The position numbers were made by a program, and so were the translations under genes. This document shows, piece by piece, positions 22,265 through 29,615 of a stretch of DNA of 64,000 nt. Positions within the stretch are counted from its first letter, which is position 1, and each line of letters begins with the position of its first letter. The notes beneath the pieces are model-generated. The model was not told where the DNA came from and ran no database searches. It saw only the letters and a program-made list of their open reading frames with translations. Source of the DNA: Blastococcus sp. CT_GayMR19 (lineage in GTDB: Bacteria > Actinomycetota > Actinomycetes > Mycobacteriales > Geodermatophilaceae); the NCBI RefSeq assembly GCF_004570385.1, contig NZ_SPQL01000010.1, positions 62,001 to 126,000 of the forward strand, in the 5' to 3' direction.

Positions 22265-23884
22265 TCAGCTCTGGCCGAGCACCCGGGCGAGCACGTCGTC
22301 GGGCTCGTCCTCGTCGCGGTAGCGGCGCCGACGACGACCGCCGGAGCTCGGCGTGACGCCGTTCTCCGCCAGGATCTCGGCCAGCCGGTTGCCCTCCCCC
22401 GACCCCGGGGCGGTGGCGGGTTCCTGGTCGCGCACCGCGACGCGGTAGCCACCGCGGTCGTCGATCCGGACGGACGGCGGCCCCGGCGCGACGGCCGGAC
22501 GGTACGCCGTCCGCGGCTCGGCGGGGACTTCGGCCACCGGGAGCACGTCGTCGGCCCGCCGCCGCAGCGGGGGCACCTCCGGGCGGGACGGCGTCGGCGC
22601 CGGACCGTCGAGGAGCGACCGGGCGGCCAGCCAGTCGAGCGGGGACGGCGGGGCCACCGGTGGCGGAACCGGTGGGAGCTCGGCGCGGGAGCGCCGTCCC
22701 TCCTGGACCGCGGGAACGGGCGGCGACGCCGGGCCGGGGGCTTGCCACATCGGCGGCGACGGCGACGCGGGCGGGGGTGGAGTCGCGGGAGGTGCCGCCA
22801 CGGGAGCCGGCGGACGGGCGATCGACGCCGGCGCGATCGCCGACATCGTCGTCGGCGGCGGGCCGGTGGGCTCGTCCGCGACGTGCGCCTCCGGGAGGAA
22901 TCCGGCCTCGGTCGACGGTGCGGCCGGCCAGACGCTGGTCCCGGCGGCGGGCGACCACTCGCCGGTGGCCGGGGTGTGCCGCGTCGGGAGCGGAGCGTCC
23001 CAGGGCCGGGGCTCGACGGCGGACACCTGCCAGGACGTGCGGCCGTCCGCGGAACCAGGGACCGGCGGCCGGCTACCGGACCGCTCGACCCGGACCTGCT
23101 CGAAGTGCTGCGTCTCGCGTGGCTCGTCCAACCGGATCGCCGGCCAGCCGCCGGTGAGCTCCCGCGGGGGGACGTCGTCGGCCCAGCCGCTGCCGTCGAG
23201 GGCGCGACCCTGTCCGCTGTCCGTCCGCCCCGGCTCCGCGGGCAGCCGGCTGGCCTGGGTGCGCATGACGATCCGTTCGACGAGCATCTCGCTCGACAAC
23301 TGCTCGGTGAGCTCCGCGCGGAGCCTGCCCATGTCCGCGCGCAGGTCGCCCAGCTGGCCGAGCTCCTGCCGCAGGGACATCAGCGCGGCGACGTCGTCCC
23401 GGAGAGCCGCGACGCGGGCCACGTCGTCACGCAGGCCGGAGAGCGCGGCGAGATCACCGCGCAGCTCGGACACCCGTGCCACCTCGTCGCGCAGGCTCGA
23501 CAGCTCGGCGATGTCACCGCGCAGCGCGTCGAGCTCGTACCGCATCGATTCCTCGGCCTCGCGGCGCAGTTCGTGCTCGAGCTCGAGCTCGTACTCGCGC
23601 CGGGCGGCCACCTCCCGGTCCAGCTCGGCCTCGTACGCCCGGCGCAGCTCCGCCTCGCGGGCCGAGGCGGCCACCCGGTCGGTGTCGCGCCGGCCGGCGG
23701 CGAAGGTCGCCAGGACGAACGCCCAGGCCACGGCCACGACGGCCACCCGCAGGTACTGGGGGTTGTCGGTGAGGAAGACGGCGAGGGTCGCCACGGCCGC
23801 GAGGGCGAAGCCCCCGGCGACGATCAGGGTGCGCGAGCGAGGGGCGCCGACGCGAGGGGCGATGTCGTCCTCGCGCGGGGGCAT
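22265..23884 (-). CDS. DUF6779-type membrane and coiled-coil protein (Rv3604c-like)
   Basis: A 539-residue protein. Two transmembrane helices lie near the N-terminus (about 19-39 and 45-65). A long charged coiled coil follows (about 70-195) with heptad-like repeats SLRDEVARV/ALRDDVA/DLRADMG. A low-complexity Pro/Ala-rich region spans about 230-460, and a basic-acidic tail ends RRRRYRDEDEPDDVLARVLGQ. The tail and the overall plan match the conserved Rv3604c-type protein found next to the pan/fol genes. It may be a cell-envelope scaffold, but no function is known. It ends 3 bp from the convergent SDR stop. Confidence 0.75.
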   Translation of the reverse strand: MPPREDDIAPRVGAPRSRTLIVAGGFALAAVATLAVFLTDNPQYLRVAVVAVAWAFVLATFAAGRRDTDRVAASAREAELRRAYEAELDREVAARREYELELEHELRREAEESMRYELDALRGDIAELSSLRDEVARVSELRGDLAALSGLRDDVARVAALRDDVAALMSLRQELGQLGDLRADMGRLRAELTEQLSSEMLVERIVMRTQASRLPAEPGRTDSGQGRALDGSGWADDVPPRELTGGWPAIRLDEPRETQHFEQVRVERSGSRPPVPGSADGRTSWQVSAVEPRPWDAPLPTRHTPATGEWSPAAGTSVWPAAPSTEAGFLPEAHVADEPTGPPPTTMSAIAPASIARPPAPVAAPPATPPPPASPSPPMWQAPGPASPPVPAVQEGRRSRAELPPVPPPVAPPSPLDWLAARSLLDGPAPTPSRPEVPPLRRRADDVLPVAEVPAEPRTAYRPAVAPGPPSVRIDDRGGYRVAVRDQEPATAPGSGEGNRLAEILAENGVTPSSGGRRRRRYRDEDEPDDVLARVLGQS

Positions 23885-23974
23885 GACACCCAGCGTAGCG
23901 GCGTCAGGGGCTCACGCACGGTCAGGAAGGGCGTTGCGGCACGGCCGTCGTGCGCCGGCTGCCACAGTGGTGCC

Positions 23975-24580
23975 ATGTCGCTCACCCTGCTCGACTGGCG
24001 CCGGCGGACGAGTGCCCTCTTCGCCGCGGCTCGGGCCGCCGCCGACCCCGAGGCGGGCTGGCGGACCTGGCGGGACGGCCGGGACGAGCTCTTCGCGACC
24101 CATCCCGACTCACCGCTGGACGACGCGGCCCGCGCGGCGTTCGCGGGGCTCCCGTTCGCGGACTACGACCCGGCCCTCCGCTTCGAGCCGGCGCTCGGAC
24201 CAGCCGCCCCGCAGCGGCTGGAACTGCCGACGGCGGCCGACGGCGTCGTCCCGCTGGACCGGATCGGGACCGTCTCCCTCGGAGAGCTGGGCGACATCGA
24301 CGTCTGGTGGCTGGGCGGCTACGGGGGCGGGGTCTTCCTGCCGCTGCGCGACGGCACCGCCGGTGCGACGACGTACGGGGGCGGGCGATACCTGCTGGAC
24401 ACGGTCAAGGGCGCCGACCTCGGCGGGGACGGCGAGCGGCTGGTGGTCGACCTCAACTTCGCCTACCACCCGTCGTGCACCTACGACCCGCGCTGGTCGT
24501 GCCCGCTGGCCCCGGAGGGCAACCGGCTCACCGCCCCGGTCCCCGCCGGCGAGCAGCTCCCGGCCGGCGGCTGGTACTGA
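23975..24580 (+). CDS. DUF1684 family protein
   Basis: 201 residues, no signal or membrane segment. The N-terminal WRRRTSALFAAARA and GWRTWRDGRDELFATHPDSPL block and the C-terminal NFAYHPSCTYDPRWSCPLAPEGNRL block are the hallmarks of DUF1684; the latter contains the conserved Tyr-Pro-Cys and Cys-Pro-Leu-Pro/Ala-Asn pattern. Biochemical role unknown. It converges with the osmoprotectant-binding protein gene, with a hairpin between them. Confidence 0.85.
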   Translation: MSLTLLDWRRRTSALFAAARAAADPEAGWRTWRDGRDELFATHPDSPLDDAARAAFAGLPFADYDPALRFEPALGPAAPQRLELPTAADGVVPLDRIGTVSLGELGDIDVWWLGGYGGGVFLPLRDGTAGATTYGGGRYLLDTVKGADLGGDGERLVVDLNFAYHPSCTYDPRWSCPLAPEGNRLTAPVPAGEQLPAGGWY

Positions 24581-24584
24581 GCGG

Positions 24585-24615
24585 GGGCCACCCCTCCCAG
24601 GGGGAAGGGCGGCCC
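24585..24615. terminator. Bidirectional hairpin between DUF1684 and binding-protein genes
   Basis: GGGCC-a-CCC-c-TCCC pairs with GGGA-a-GGG-c-GGCCC around an AGG loop, two mismatches, between convergent stops. Confidence 0.55.
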
Positions 24616-24622
24616 TGCCGAC

Positions 24623-25621
24623 TCAGTTCTGGGCGAGCGCGGCGTCGGAGCTGAAGACCAGCCCGATCGAGACCTCGCCCTGCTGGATCGCCGCCTTGGT
24701 CAGCGGACCGCCGGCATCCAGCTCACGGAAGCTCTCGAACTCCATGCCGTAGGCCTCCTCGAGACCGAGCTGGCAGAACGGCCGCGTCGGGCACTCCGGC
24801 GGTCCGCCCAGGACCAGCGAACCGTCGCCGCAGGCCTCGGCCAGCTCCGACAGCGTGGCCACGCCCAGCTCGTCGGCGAACGCCTGGGTGACGGCGAACG
24901 CGTTCTGGTCCGCCGCTTCCGACGGCTCGCCGAACGCCAGGCCCGCCGCCGTGGCCAGTGGCTCGAGGGCCGCGAGGGTCTCGTCGACGTCCCCGCTGGC
25001 GACCGGGTTCGCGTCGTCGGCCTCGATGAACTCGGTGACCGTGGCGAGGTACTCGGGGACGACCTGGATCTGCTGGCCGGCCTTCAGCGCCTCCAGGTAC
25101 AGGTTCCGGCTGCCGGCCTCGGTGACGGTGGCGGTGAATCCGGCGGCGTTGAGCACGCCGGCGTAGATGTTGGCCAGGATCACGTTCTCGCTGAAGTCGG
25201 CCGCGCCCACGACGATCGGGCCGCTGCCCTGCTCGAGGCCCTCGGTGACCCCGTTCTCCTCGACCCACGCCGCGGCGACGTCCTCGGCGCTCTGCCGCTC
25301 CAGGTCGACGGCGGCGTTGAGTCCGATCAGCTCCTCGGTGGTGAGTGCTGCCGAGACGGCGTTCAGCGCGGGCAGGAGGGCCGGCTGGGCCTCCGCGGTG
25401 GCGGCGTGGACGGCCGGGATGATGTTGTCGGCGTTCTGCAGGCCCTGGTCGTCCTCGAGGACGACGAGCTGCTCACCCTCGACCGGTGCGCACGCCGCAC
25501 CCGACGCGGCGGCGTCGGTCTCCTCGCCGCCGCCGGTGCCCGAGGAGCCGGACTCCCCGCAGGCCGTGGTCACGGCGAGCGCCAGGACGAGTGGTGCGAT
25601 GAACCGGATGCGTGCGCGCAT
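24623..25621 (-). CDS. Osmoprotectant ABC transporter binding lipoprotein, apparently circularly permuted
   Basis: A 332-residue lipoprotein (lipobox near LAVTTAC, Cys21). The OpuAC/QAT fold is recognisable but in unusual order. Residues about 52-125 (LVVLEDDQGLQNADNIIPAV, then LTTEELIGLNAAVD and AEDVAAAWVEE) are what normally closes such proteins. Residues about 136-332 begin with the normal N-terminal strand (IVVGAADFSENVILANIYAGVL), continue VVPEYLATVTEF and LGGPPECPTRP, and stop at VSIGLVFSSDAALAQN, exactly before the displaced segment. Binding of a quaternary amine such as glycine betaine is inferred from family and neighbours. Start ATG 25621 after an AAGG-type site; a 151-bp gap separates it from the permease genes. 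Confidence 0.85.
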   Translation of the reverse strand: MRARIRFIAPLVLALAVTTACGESGSSGTGGGEETDAAASGAACAPVEGEQLVVLEDDQGLQNADNIIPAVHAATAEAQPALLPALNAVSAALTTEELIGLNAAVDLERQSAEDVAAAWVEENGVTEGLEQGSGPIVVGAADFSENVILANIYAGVLNAAGFTATVTEAGSRNLYLEALKAGQQIQVVPEYLATVTEFIEADDANPVASGDVDETLAALEPLATAAGLAFGEPSEAADQNAFAVTQAFADELGVATLSELAEACGDGSLVLGGPPECPTRPFCQLGLEEAYGMEFESFRELDAGGPLTKAAIQQGEVSIGLVFSSDAALAQN

Positions 25622-25772
25622 GTCTGGACGCCCCGCCTTCTGTGTCCCGTGGTGGCCCCGGGCCACCACGCGTGTCTGGCGGGAGGATTCCCGCGTCGGT
25701 CATGGAACCCCCTCCGTTGCACGCAATGCAATGCGGGGGGCGTCCGTTACCGATTCGTAAGCACCGCGCCGG

Positions 25773-26507
25773 TCACAGCGGCACCCCGCTGGCCGTGGGC
25801 TCGGCGCTCGCGGCGAGGACGGGCCGTTTCGCCGACGTCCACGGGAAGCGCTTCGGACCCGGGGTCGCCACCCACGACAGCAGCACCAGCAGCAGTTCCG
25901 TGAGCACCGCGAGGACGGCGATCAGGAGTGCCCCGGCGATGATCAGCCCGTAGTCCTGCTGGCCGAAGCCGAGCCGGACCAGCCGGCCGAGGCCTCCCCC
26001 ACCGACCAGCGCCGCGAGACTGGCCGTGGCCACGACCTGGACCGTCGCCGTGCGCAGCCCGGTCATGATCAGCGGGAGGGCCAGCGGCAGATCGACCCGG
26101 CGGGTGACCTCGCCGCTGCTCATCCCCATCCCCCGGGCGGCCTCGCGCACGTCGGCGTCGACGCCACGAACCCCGACATAGGTGTTGGCGAGGATCGGCG
26201 GGATCGCGAAGACCGCCAGGGCGATCGTGGTGGCCCGGTTGCCGAAGCCGATCGGGCTGACGGCGAACAGCGTGAGCAGCGCCAGGGTGGGCACGGCCCG
26301 GCTGACGTTGGAGACCACCACGACCGCCCCGCCGCCGCGACCGGACGTGCCGAGCGCGACGGCGATGGGGAACGCGATGACGAAGGCGGCCAGGACGGCG
26401 ACGGCGGAGATCGTCAGGTGCTCGCCGAGCAGCTCGAGGATCCCGTCGCGGCGGGTCCAGTTGAACGGGTCGTTGAGGTAGACCATCGCCTCGCCGAAGG
26501 CGCTCAC
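25773..26507 (-). CDS. Osmoprotectant ABC transporter permease (OpuB/ProW type)
   Basis: 244 residues, about five or six transmembrane helices. The binding-protein-dependent permease EAA loop is EAARGMGMSSGEVTRRVDLPLALPLIMTGLRTA, followed by the family GGGGLGRLVRLGF. The GTG start at 26507 overlaps the upstream permease stop by 4 bp, so the two form a heteromeric channel pair. The C-terminal 30 residues are a hydrophilic tail not typical of the family. Confidence 0.9.
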   Translation of the reverse strand: MSAFGEAMVYLNDPFNWTRRDGILELLGEHLTISAVAVLAAFVIAFPIAVALGTSGRGGGAVVVVSNVSRAVPTLALLTLFAVSPIGFGNRATTIALAVFAIPPILANTYVGVRGVDADVREAARGMGMSSGEVTRRVDLPLALPLIMTGLRTATVQVVATASLAALVGGGGLGRLVRLGFGQQDYGLIIAGALLIAVLAVLTELLLVLLSWVATPGPKRFPWTSAKRPVLAASAEPTASGVPL

Positions 26508-27220
26508 GGTCGGACCGCCCGCGCCCAGGGCGTGACCAGCCGCTCGGCGCCGGCAAGCAGCACGTCGGCGAGGAGGGCCAGCAGCACGCAGCCGACCGAG
26601 CCGGTGACGATCTCCGCCCGGTAGAAGTTCGCGTTGAACCCGCCGTAGATCAGCTGCCCCAGGCCGCCGTGCCCGACGAGCACGCCCACCGTGACCAGGG
26701 CGACGGTCGAGACGGTGGCGATCCGCAGGCCGGTCATGAAGGCGGGGAGGGCCAGCGGCAGGTCGATCTGCCAGAACAGCCGGACCGGGCCGTAGCCCAT
26801 GCCGCGGGCGGCCTCGCGGACGTCGGCCGGAACCCCCTGCAGCCCGGTGAGGAAGTTGCGCACCAGGATGACCAGCGAGTACGCGACCAGGCCGATGAGC
26901 ACCGTGGTCGCCGACAGCCCGGTGAACGGGAAGATGAAGGCGAACATGGCCAGCGACGGGATCGTGTAGACGATCGTGGACACCGCCAGCACGGGCCCCG
27001 CGACGACGCGGTTGCGCCGGGCCAGCAACGCCAGGGGCAGCGCGATCAGCGCGCCGAGGACCACCGCGCCCAGGGTGAGCCGGATGTGCTCGCCCAGGTA
27101 CCGCAGAATGGTGTCCCAGTTCTCGGTCACGTAGGAAGGATCGATCCAGGGGTTCGGCGCCTCGTCCACCGCGAGCACCGCGCCACCGGCCTCCGCCGCA
27201 GCGCTCACCACCGGGCGCAT
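26504..27220 (-). CDS. Osmoprotectant ABC transporter permease (OpuB/ProW type)
   Basis: 238 residues with the permease core (LTLGAVVLGALIALPLALLA, IPSLAMFAFIFPFTG) and the EAA loop EAARGMGYGPVRLFWQIDLPLALPAFMTGLR, then VGHGGLGQLIYGGF. The first 25 residues are hydrophilic. It is first in a minus-strand permease-permease-binding protein set and is divergent, with only 17 bp between start codons, from the cognate ATPase gene. Confidence 0.9.
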   Translation of the reverse strand: MRPVVSAAAEAGGAVLAVDEAPNPWIDPSYVTENWDTILRYLGEHIRLTLGAVVLGALIALPLALLARRNRVVAGPVLAVSTIVYTIPSLAMFAFIFPFTGLSATTVLIGLVAYSLVILVRNFLTGLQGVPADVREAARGMGYGPVRLFWQIDLPLALPAFMTGLRIATVSTVALVTVGVLVGHGGLGQLIYGGFNANFYRAEIVTGSVGCVLLALLADVLLAGAERLVTPWARAVRP

Positions 27221-27237
27221 CCCAGAAGGGTCACCCC

Positions 27238-28440
27238 GTGGACGCTACTGCGCAGCCTCCCCATCGGCCGGACACGGACGACGGGACCGGTGGTGCGGCC
27301 GCCGAGATCCGGCTGGAGGGGGTCAGCAAGGTCTACGCCGACGGCACCGTGGGCGTCGCCGAACTGGACCTGACCTTCGCCGCCGGCGAACTCACCGTGC
27401 TGGTCGGCCCCTCGGGGTGCGGCAAGACGACCACGATGAAGATGATCAACCGCATCATCGAGCCGACGACCGGGCGCATCCTGCTCGACGGCGTGGACGT
27501 CACCCGCGCCGATCCCGACAAGCTCCGGCGCCGGATCGGCTACGTCATTCAGAGCGTCGGGCTCTTTCCGCACCAGAGCGTGCGGACCAACGTGGGCACC
27601 GTCCCGCGGCTCCTCGGCTGGGACAGGACGAGGATCCGCGACCGCGTCGACGAGCTGCTCGGCATCGTCGGCCTCGACCCCGCCGTCCACGGCGACCGGT
27701 ACCCCGCCCAGCTCTCCGGCGGTCAGCGCCAGCGTGCCGGGGTGGCGCGGGCGCTGGCCGCCGATCCTCCGGTCCTGCTGATGGACGAGCCGTTCTCCGC
27801 CGTCGACCCGGTCGTGCGCGAGCGGCTCCAGTCGGAGTTCCTGCGGCTGCAGGCGACCGTGCGCAAGACGATCGTCTTCGTCACCCACGACATCGAGGAA
27901 GCGGTGCGCATCGGCGACCGGATCGCCGTCATGAGCAGCGGCGGGAAGGTCGAGCAGTTCGCCACCCCGGCCGAGCTGCTGGGGAAGCCGGCCAACGCCT
28001 TCGTCGCCGACTTCGTGGGCGCCGACCGGGGGCTCAAGCGGCTCGCGGTGACCGGCATCGATCCCGCCGATCTCGAGCGGCCACCGTTCGTCCACGTGGC
28101 CGACGGCCTGGCCGACGCGCGCGCGGCGATGGAACGGGTCGGCGCACGCTGGGCCGTCGTCCTCGACGACTCCGGGAACCTGCACGGCTGGCTCTCCGCC
28201 GAGCGCGCCACCGGCGCGGGCACGGTCGGGTCGGCCGGGCACCGCATGGAGGCCTGGGTGCCGGCCGACGCCACGCTCAAGACGGCGTTCGCGACGATGC
28301 TGCAGCACGAGGCGGGCTGGGTGGCGGTGCTGGACGGCGACCGCTTCCTCGGCGTCCTCACCCCGGAATCCCTGCACGCTGCGCTGCGCCGCTCCGTGGA
28401 GGGGTCGGTCCCGGAGGTCGCGGGCGCAGCCCACGGCTGA
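27238..28440 (+). CDS. Osmoprotectant ABC transporter ATP-binding protein with CBS-like domain
   Basis: 400 residues. The ATPase domain (about 25-265) has Walker A GPSGCGKT (57-64), the Q-loop in YVIQSVGLFPHQ, signature LSGGQRQR, Walker B VLLMDEPFSAVDP and H-loop VTHD. The C-terminal third (about 275-390) looks like a degenerate tandem CBS pair (VHVADGLADARAAMERV, WVPADATLKTAFATMLQHEAGWVAVLDGDRFLGVLT), the ionic-strength sensor of OpuA-type transporters. AGAAGGG lies 7 nt before GTG 27238. Confidence 0.93.
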   Translation: MDATAQPPHRPDTDDGTGGAAAEIRLEGVSKVYADGTVGVAELDLTFAAGELTVLVGPSGCGKTTTMKMINRIIEPTTGRILLDGVDVTRADPDKLRRRIGYVIQSVGLFPHQSVRTNVGTVPRLLGWDRTRIRDRVDELLGIVGLDPAVHGDRYPAQLSGGQRQRAGVARALAADPPVLLMDEPFSAVDPVVRERLQSEFLRLQATVRKTIVFVTHDIEEAVRIGDRIAVMSSGGKVEQFATPAELLGKPANAFVADFVGADRGLKRLAVTGIDPADLERPPFVHVADGLADARAAMERVGARWAVVLDDSGNLHGWLSAERATGAGTVGSAGHRMEAWVPADATLKTAFATMLQHEAGWVAVLDGDRFLGVLTPESLHAALRRSVEGSVPEVAGAAHG

Positions 28441-28462
28441 TACGACCACGTCGTCGTGGACT

Positions 28463-28589
28463 CGGCGCGGGGGCCGGAGGCCTCCCGCCGAGGACATGGG
28501 CAGCGGCTCAGCGGCGCAGGAGACGGCTCGTGGCCGCGGTGCGGTCCGGAGGAACGCAGTGTCACAGCGGTGTCGTCCGGAGGACGACA
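28463..28589. repeat. Dispersed element with GGA-triloop hairpins, copy 1
   Basis: The spacer between two convergent stops holds three hairpins, each closing on a GGA loop. The first is 28463-28490 (CGGCG then GGCC-GGA-GGCC, with a bulge and a G-U pair). The second is an imperfect GCGgTCC-GGA-GGAaCGC near 28550. The third is a perfect TGTCGTCC-GGA-GGACGACA at 28571-28589. Sequence around the first and third is shared with the spacer at 33633-33864. It may also terminate the ATPase gene. Confidence 0.65.
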
Positions 28590-28602
28590 GGATGCAGAGC
28601 CG

Positions 28603-29115
28603 CTACGCGCTGACGCCCTCGGTGGGGTCGCGGTCCTCCGGCGGGACCCGGCAGGCGGACTCCAGCGCGAGCGCCGCGGCCACCAGGCCCAGGGCGCAGG
28701 CGATCCCGATCACCGCGGTTCCCGTGTCGCCGCCGGCCTCCTGCAGCCGGCCGACCGCGGGACCCACGTACGCGAGCACGCCCGCCCAGACCCCCGCGAA
28801 TCCGGCACCGACCCAGGCGCTGGCCTGGGCCAGCACCGCCAGGCGGGCCACGAGCATGGGTTCGAGGGGCCGCACGGACCCGGTCGTCGCCCTGGCCGCG
28901 GTGCCGCGCGACGCCCGGAGCGCCCGGATCGCCGCGAGCCGCGTGCGGACGGTGCGCGCCGACAGGGCTTCGCCGACGGCGAGCACCGCCAAGGGTGCGG
29001 GCAGCCACCAGTCCAGCGGCGGCAGCTCGCCGTAGAAGGCCCGGACGAGGAGCCACGAGGCCACGGCCAGACCGACGGCGAGGACGGCGAGATCACGCCG
29101 GCCGACCGGGTTCAA
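28603..29115 (-). CDS. DUF3180 membrane protein
   Basis: 170 residues, four hydrophobic helices (DLAVLAVGLAVASWLLVRAF, WLPAPLAVLAVGEAL, LAVLAQASAWVGAGFAGVWAG, AVIGIACALGLVAAALALES). Length and pattern match DUF3180, the usual partner after folK in actinobacteria. No ATG or GTG fits; I read a TTG start at 29115, which overlaps the folK stop by 4 bp and has GGGAG 8 nt upstream. Last gene of the ftsH-fol operon. Function unknown. Confidence 0.82.
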   Translation of the reverse strand: MNPVGRRDLAVLAVGLAVASWLLVRAFYGELPPLDWWLPAPLAVLAVGEALSARTVRTRLAAIRALRASRGTAARATTGSVRPLEPMLVARLAVLAQASAWVGAGFAGVWAGVLAYVGPAVGRLQEAGGDTGTAVIGIACALGLVAAALALESACRVPPEDRDPTEGVSA

Positions 29116-29615
29116 TGGAGATGCTCCCAGCGCGTGACGGCGGCGACGTCCTCGGGTGGCAGGGCGGCGACCAGGTCGGCGACCCTGCCGTGGCCGGGGA
29201 GAGCCGCGCCGGGGTCCAGGGTCAGCCAGGGGACCAGCACGAAGGCCCGCTCGTGCGCGCGCGGGTGCGGCAGGGTCAGCTCCGGGTCGTCGGACAGCAC
29301 CGGCGCGCCGTCGTCCCCGATGACCGTGACGACGTCGACGTCGAGGGTGCGCGGGCCGAAGCGGACGTCCCGGGTGCGTCCGGCGGCCTGCTCGAGCTCG
29401 TGCGCGCGGGCCCGCCAGCCGACGGCATCGCGCGGGCCGCGGACGATCGCGACCGCGTTGAGGTACGGCGGCTGCTCCACCGGCCCCCACGGTGGGGTCT
29501 CGTAGAGGGTGGAGCGGGCGACGAGGCCGTCGCCCGCGAGGGCGGCCAGTGCGGTGCGCAGTGCACCCGCGCGGTCACCCAGGTTGGCGCCCAGCGAGAG
29601 GACCGCACGCGTCAC
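29112..29615 (-). CDS. folK: 6-hydroxymethyl-7,8-dihydropterin pyrophosphokinase
   Basis: FolK transfers pyrophosphate from ATP to 6-hydroxymethyldihydropterin. The 167-residue protein has SLGANLGDR, the pterin-binding ETPPWGP and PYLNAV, and the HPPK signature RFGPRTLDVDVV, followed by LPHPRAHERAFVLVPW. Start overlaps the folB stop by 4 bp (GTGA). FolB and FolK are separate here, not fused. Confidence 0.95.
   Translation of the reverse strand: MTRAVLSLGANLGDRAGALRTALAALAGDGLVARSTLYETPPWGPVEQPPYLNAVAIVRGPRDAVGWRARAHELEQAAGRTRDVRFGPRTLDVDVVTVIGDDGAPVLSDDPELTLPHPRAHERAFVLVPWLTLDPGAALPGHGRVADLVAALPPEDVAAVTRWEHLH

Follow-up and report, generated by a model that had tools for sequence, protein, structure and literature searches.

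A circularly permuted OpuAC/ProX-type substrate-binding lipoprotein of Blastococcus and further segment orders among its actinomycetotal relatives

The window analyzed here, a 64,000-nucleotide stretch of a Blastococcus sp. CT_GayMR19 contig, contains on its minus strand an open reading frame (24623..25621; ATG at 25621, stop at 24623-24625) for a 332-residue substrate-binding lipoprotein, in which the segment that normally closes proteins of the OpuAC/ProX family appears ahead of the strand that normally starts them. This raises the question of whether the chain has been rotated and, if so, how the new order came about. The gene is whole and lies in the context expected of OpuAC/ProX-type proteins. 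In the ORF list and by Pfam it adjoins ABC permease 2 (25773..26507) and ABC permease 1 (26504..27220), both BPD_transp_1 on the minus strand, followed by a divergent ABC ATPase with C-terminal CBS domains on the plus strand (27238..28440), a set that we take to be the make-up of an OpuA/ProU-type importer. The starts of permease 1 and the ATPase, as called, are divergent with 17 bases between them (window 27220-27238). Promoter and terminator scans of window 24400-28700 found nothing, including no sigma-70-like site in this short gap, so the start codons of both genes may lie further in. Within its own genome the protein was the sole OpuAC match above the Pfam cut-off; one more, at 20.5 bits, fell just under it.

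For comparison the family was split into three segments: N, the start of lobe 1 and the first part of lobe 2; D, the rest of lobe 2; and C, the segment that closes lobe 1. The ordinary OpuAC/ProX order is then written N-D-C and that of the window protein C-N-D, which places it outside the D-C-N type of Bacillus subtilis OpuAC. All parts of the gene lie on the minus strand. A signal peptide (25559..25621), assigned by eye, ends in LALAVTTAC, read as a lipobox with the lipid-anchor Cys21, and a lipobox is also present in relatives. A low-complexity linker follows (residues 22-50, 25472..25558), delimited by low model confidence and by the conservation of its permutant-specific Cys44. The C segment (residues 51-125, 25247..25471) was placed by phmmer and segment profiles, as was the N segment (residues 134-265, 24827..25222), which ends with the permutant-specific Cys264. 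Segment profiles also delimited the 8-residue linker with GSG that bridges the former C-terminal and N-terminal ends (25223..25246) and the D segment (residues 269-330, 24632..24817), just after which the protein stops.

Comparison by phmmer with ProX of Archaeoglobus fulgidus (AfProX) aligned window residues 131-327 with AfProX 3-194 and residues 51-125 with AfProX 200-273. Against the Pfam OpuAC profile (PF04069), the best stretch on the window protein was profile 2-185 at residues 135-331, and in a search of the genome profile 2-186 and 187-257 matched neighbouring places of one open frame, with the 187-257 part upstream (85.5 and 51 bits, E-values 7.6e-24 and 3.6e-13). Homology to the whole profile is present, with its pieces in rotated order. 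Because residues 51-125 align to both AfProX 200-273 and OpuAC 187-257, the displaced segment is, well beyond chance, the OpuAC C-terminal segment, and these alignments contradict an unrelated origin. The first-pass annotation had located the closing segment at residues 52-125, ahead of the starting strand, one residue from the boundary found here. It had also claimed that the protein halts at SSDAALAQN, precisely where the moved segment belongs, and normal-order relatives (L151, L152) do continue into C at this point. Segment profiles gave one match each for C (51-125), N (134-265) and D (269-330) on this frame; they detected no second copy of C, and no other ORF of at least 120 amino acids with a segment match, in the 64-kb window, in agreement with the single copy reported earlier. 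In 110 distinct C-N-D proteins, 6-10 residues connect the old ends, and 93 of these proteins have GSG there. Single copies, a rotated order and a linker joining the old ends are the marks of a natural circular permutant, and the window protein represents a genuine circular permutation of the OpuAC/ProX substrate-binding fold.

The AlphaFold model (pLDDT 92.3, pTM 0.87; pLDDT low over mature residues 1-18) superposed in parts on known folds, a comparison that the first-pass annotation had proposed. The C and N segments together fitted OpuAC (2b4l), and N and D together fitted AfProX (191 residues of 3mam at 2.2 Å, 30% identity). Among solved structures the best matches, each covering a part of the model, were chains of OpuAC and of the ProX type, and the two-lobed family fold is present. 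Foldseek whole-chain TM-scores were low (0.37 on 2b4l and 0.50 on 3mam, by query length); such scores would be expected under a swapped order, yet they are no proof of a swap. Among the OpuAC/ProX rows listed by VIA-align no solved chain had the C-N-D order, each superposing either N and D or chiefly C and N.

The same order was found in other actinobacteria, where the first-pass annotation had suggested looking for it. Counts from the match lists of the family, class and phylum scans are lower bounds for weak matches. One collinear match covering at least query residues 13-330 was present in at least 91 of the 112 genomes of the window's family; for the rest, among the matches listed, eight showed another order and 13 gave partial, weak, normal-order-like or no matches. 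A class sample contained full-length C-N-D in at least 17 of 394 genomes under six family codes (the window and family member G023 included), and in a phylum sample of 296 genomes the full-length matches listed were the window and G206, both within the class. Named carriers in the Geodermatophilaceae were Blastococcus, Geodermatophilus, Modestobacter, Klenkia and Trujillonella, and elsewhere a Sporichthyaceae MAG and Micromonosporaceae such as Actinoplanes, Virgisporangium and Dactylosporangium. The C-N-D form is conserved across soil actinobacteria. The scan of named genome contigs kept 80 of 90 relatives and chose loci by two peptide patterns, a lipobox motif and a Cys264-holding one; the frequency of the lipobox CGESGSSG in these loci is partly due to selection by the lipobox pattern, and C-N-D loci found otherwise had more varied lipoboxes (e.g. 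CGDAGSSG, CGEEGSS, CSGGGG). One record in the set, titled 'UNVERIFIED_ORG: Bacillus sp. AZ43' (L063), has a Geodermatophilaceae-type operon, and its organism label looks wrong.

The spread is patchy in places. Among the matches listed for family f11, six sampled genomes had C-N-D and two (G179, G195) had OpuAC-type matches with no full-length C-N-D, while G162, a genus-mate of G179, has C-N-D. In this genus, g62, the G179 locus (L172) is normal-order and belongs to another branch, the G162 locus (L145) is C-N-D, and both have the same operon layout. For plasmids, 20 of 225 matching records gave five matches in two pieces, fourteen over approximately residues 133-332 only, and one, from Mycobacterium ulcerans, collinear over C and N, which turned out to be a short fragment with D-C-N order. 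That gene (L255:2905-3663), annotated as a glycine betaine binding protein, encodes 252 amino acids comprising part of D, then C and N; it is without a signal peptide, and no permease is annotated beside it. A scan of viral contigs yielded a single unusable fragment, L134, which lies at the beginning of its contig and covers N and D only.

Trees were made with the segments in a common order and without inferring a root, from hand-thinned samples of 56 C-N-D, 4 D-C-N and 30 normal-order rows, of 25, 8 and 54, and of 16, 16 and 52 plus one fourth-order row. The third tree (16/16/52/1), in which bootstrap was not fully settled, left out the contig-cut L222; L158|5013, a very long branch, was in the 56/4/30 tree and was dropped from later ones. 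In the 56/4/30 tree 55 of the 56 C-N-D rows formed one starred clade, with L149 apart. L149 lay outside the main C-N-D clade in all free trees; its cysteine pair and GSG linker match C-N-D, and forcing all 16 sampled C-N-D rows, L149 included, into one clade was not rejected (p 0.323). The C-N-D proteins fell within a starred set (97/99) that also contains 23 normal-order proteins; the nearest of these, L151, was 57% identical over 261 columns after de-permutation. Twenty of these 23 have the layout of a divergent ATPase gene followed on the other strand by permease 1, permease 2 and the receptor; in L155 the ATPase gene shares the strand of the other genes, and for L152 and L169 the stretch fetched showed no neighbours. 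Among C-N-D loci with all four genes in the stretch (L001-L033 lie outside this listing), all but L149 share the divergent layout. Since this layout is common to C-N-D and its normal-order kin, the permutation is most simply placed inside an existing operon and transporter. That the normal order is ancestral rests on its wider spread, the tree being unrooted.

Taken together, we consider it very likely that the window protein is the lipid-anchored receptor of the adjoining ABC importer and a natural OpuAC/ProX circular permutant, derived from a normal-order ancestor in the same operon. In this scheme, a short linker, in most cases containing GSG, would have come to connect the original termini of an ordinary N-D-C receptor in this divergent operon, and the chain would have been opened anew at the boundary of lobe 2 and the closing lobe-1 segment, so that it now reads C-N-D. 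Both this order and its conservation are observed; the route was probably a tandem duplication followed by loss of the outer parts, as the first-pass annotation had also proposed. Duplication at the receptor place is seen in relatives: tandem C-N-D receptor genes stand behind the permeases in Klenkia-like L042, L043, L114, L115 (titled Modestobacter sp. Leaf380), L116 and L117, and L158:4056-6017 holds two adjacent normal-order receptor genes, the second very divergent and the longest end branch of the 56/4/30 tree. A fused duplicate intermediate, however, was absent among the ORFs scanned (201 distinct ORFs with segment matches). L201, first scored N-D-C-N and considered as such an intermediate, was rejected when its last match (9.9 bits) proved spurious, lying inside C.

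A C segment ahead of the N strand looks at first sight like an added domain, and the protein could be a normal-order receptor bearing an unrelated N-terminal addition, with its own C-terminal segment lost or separate. The alignments of residues 51-125 described above argue against this, as do the model, which sets C beside N as in OpuAC, and the presence of C in one copy only; such an origin is very improbable. An assembly error, frameshift or broken gene is suggested by the odd order and by nothing else, and it would have to coexist with an intact ORF and lipobox beside intact permeases and with the same order in at least 91 of 112 family genomes and several families, so that its probability is close to nil. 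Somewhat more can be said for a chimera, in which a different paralogue, and not the same gene, supplied the front segment, because the best C-segment matches of the window protein (L162, L160) differ from its best matches for N (L151) and D (L154). However, all of these belong to one clade, and in each of four C-N-D proteins the best normal-order match of all three segments falls in that same clade; three of them (L121, L138, L149) match the L151/L152/L169 group with every segment. Since all segments are nearest to the same normal-order clade, they point to one rearranged gene, and we regard a chimera as improbable.

With the permutation, the membrane tether enters before the C segment and not before the first lobe-1 strand. 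A cysteine before C and another at the end of N, Cys44 and Cys264 in the window protein, are both present in all 110 distinct C-N-D proteins, whereas neither occurs at the matching places in 66 of 66 distinct normal-order proteins; in a recount without the pattern-chosen loci the pair was present in 55 of 55 C-N-D proteins. A Cys44-Cys264 disulfide probably pins the new N-terminus to the body of the protein.

The pocket was compared at the places of four AfProX tyrosines (Tyr63, 111, 190 and 214) that presumably form its cage for trimethylammonium ligands. The window protein has Y, N, F and D there, and most of the aromatic betaine cage is missing. Sixteen sampled C-N-D proteins gave Y (16), N (16), F (13, else L or N) and D (15, one E), and the 23 normal-order members of the clade Y (23), N (22, one D), F (13, else T, A or G) and D (21, two E), the third place being a loose match between the two sets, as it is variable there. 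The D-C-N proteins of the class have Y, D, F and Q, as in their own normal-order kin. In these residues the pocket tracks ancestry and not segment order. Because the four-tyrosine cage is mostly lost, betaine is doubtful as a ligand. Most likely the ligand is a small solute, bound in the cleft of the receptor and passed on to the adjoining permeases; with the pocket positions kept, binding and delivery to the two permeases would proceed as in normal-order kin.

The D-C-N order was found in at least eight genomes of genus g9 (L034-L041), in at least four of families f34, f20 and f29 (L175-L178) and, outside the class, in at least ten genomes of the 296-genome phylum sample (L215-L224, of which L222 is cut by a contig end). 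A single origin of the 16 sampled D-C-N rows was rejected (log-likelihood 165 lower, p-AU 5.1e-42), and D-C-N has two or more origins in Actinomycetota. One clade of C-N-D and the class D-C-N proteins was likewise rejected (180 lower, p 1.7e-6). Genus g9 is probably Modestobacter, by its closest flanking genes, and among the matches listed 14 of its genomes had C-N-D, eight D-C-N, one neither and none both. The D-C-N transporter of this genus occupies the same chromosomal slot, from the folK side to the gene at window 22265, in inverted orientation (L034, L036, L040, L041; for L035 only the folK side was seen). An inverted D-C-N operon in the C-N-D slot indicates that the operon was replaced, not converted. 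The slot corresponds to window 22265-29615; for the gene at window 24008-24580, no counterpart was detected in the stretches of L034, L036, L040 and L041.

A fourth order, cut inside D (lobe 2), was found in two genomes of family f56 (L225, 2618-3487 on the minus strand, and L236), which are 67% or 72% identical to each other, depending on the stretch. Eighteen other loci fetched from this family (L237-L254) have the normal order, and the nearest, L237, shows 83% identity across N plus the beginning of D and 76% across the remainder (approximately 80%). L225 has a signal peptide like that of its normal-order kin, and each of its three readable cage places is a Tyr. In the stretches fetched around L225 and L236, a search for traces of a second copy was negative. 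By these comparisons, the fourth order is evidently a recent, separate permutation.

Known natural circular permutants often consist of two structures that are only distantly related. The present family, within a single phylum, combines several separate events and three cut sites with normal-order kin up to approximately 80% identical (L225 and L236 against L237 and its kin), with operon layouts common to both forms and with a cysteine pair specific to C-N-D. The system makes testable how natural circular permutation happens and whether it re-sites the tether of membrane-anchored binding proteins, and the recent L225/L236 case offers the best opening for work on the mechanism. As a speculative reading, which we hold to be possible but rather doubtful, circular permutation would be a recurrent, adaptive re-siting of the anchor from lobe 1 to the hinge or lobe 2 in lipid-tethered actinomycetotal OpuAC/ProX receptors, comprising four orders (N-D-C, C-N-D, D-C-N and cut inside D), at least four events, a disulfide staple in C-N-D and a swap of permutants in one slot. 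Circular permutation in the family is already known from B. subtilis OpuAC; the C-N-D order, its cysteine pair and recurrent permutation in one phylum were not found in the open PMC papers searched.

Among known systems, AfProX (1sw1, 3mam), OpuBC and EgtUC are normal-order N-D-C homologues, in contrast to the C-N-D window protein, and AfProX differs further in its four-tyrosine betaine cage. OpuAC of B. subtilis (2b4l), whose order reads D-C-N in the collinear alignment, is cut before D, whereas the window protein is cut before C. Against the NCBIfam OsmF equivalog NF049931 the window protein scored 68 bits, compared to a curated cut-off of 400; normal-order L151 also fell under it at 101.5 bits, so segment order alone is not the cause of the low score. 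Closer in taxonomy is MtProX of Mycobacterium tuberculosis, an actinobacterial ProX-like protein with normal segment order. It is likewise without the aromatic betaine residues, and its reported ligands were polyphenols, with no binding of betaine, choline or carnitine (PMC5894108). TpMglB-2 (Tp0684) of Treponema pallidum is, like the window protein, a naturally circularly permuted binding protein on a lipid tether, but it is a Type I sugar-binding protein of a different fold class, with a different cut, placed in a proposed 'Cluster Bc' (PMC4990184). Its authors allow that the front segment of their own permutant may stem from a different paralogue, and they raise the permuted topology as a possible adaptation to membrane anchoring, which gives the tether hypothesis a precedent (PMC4990184).
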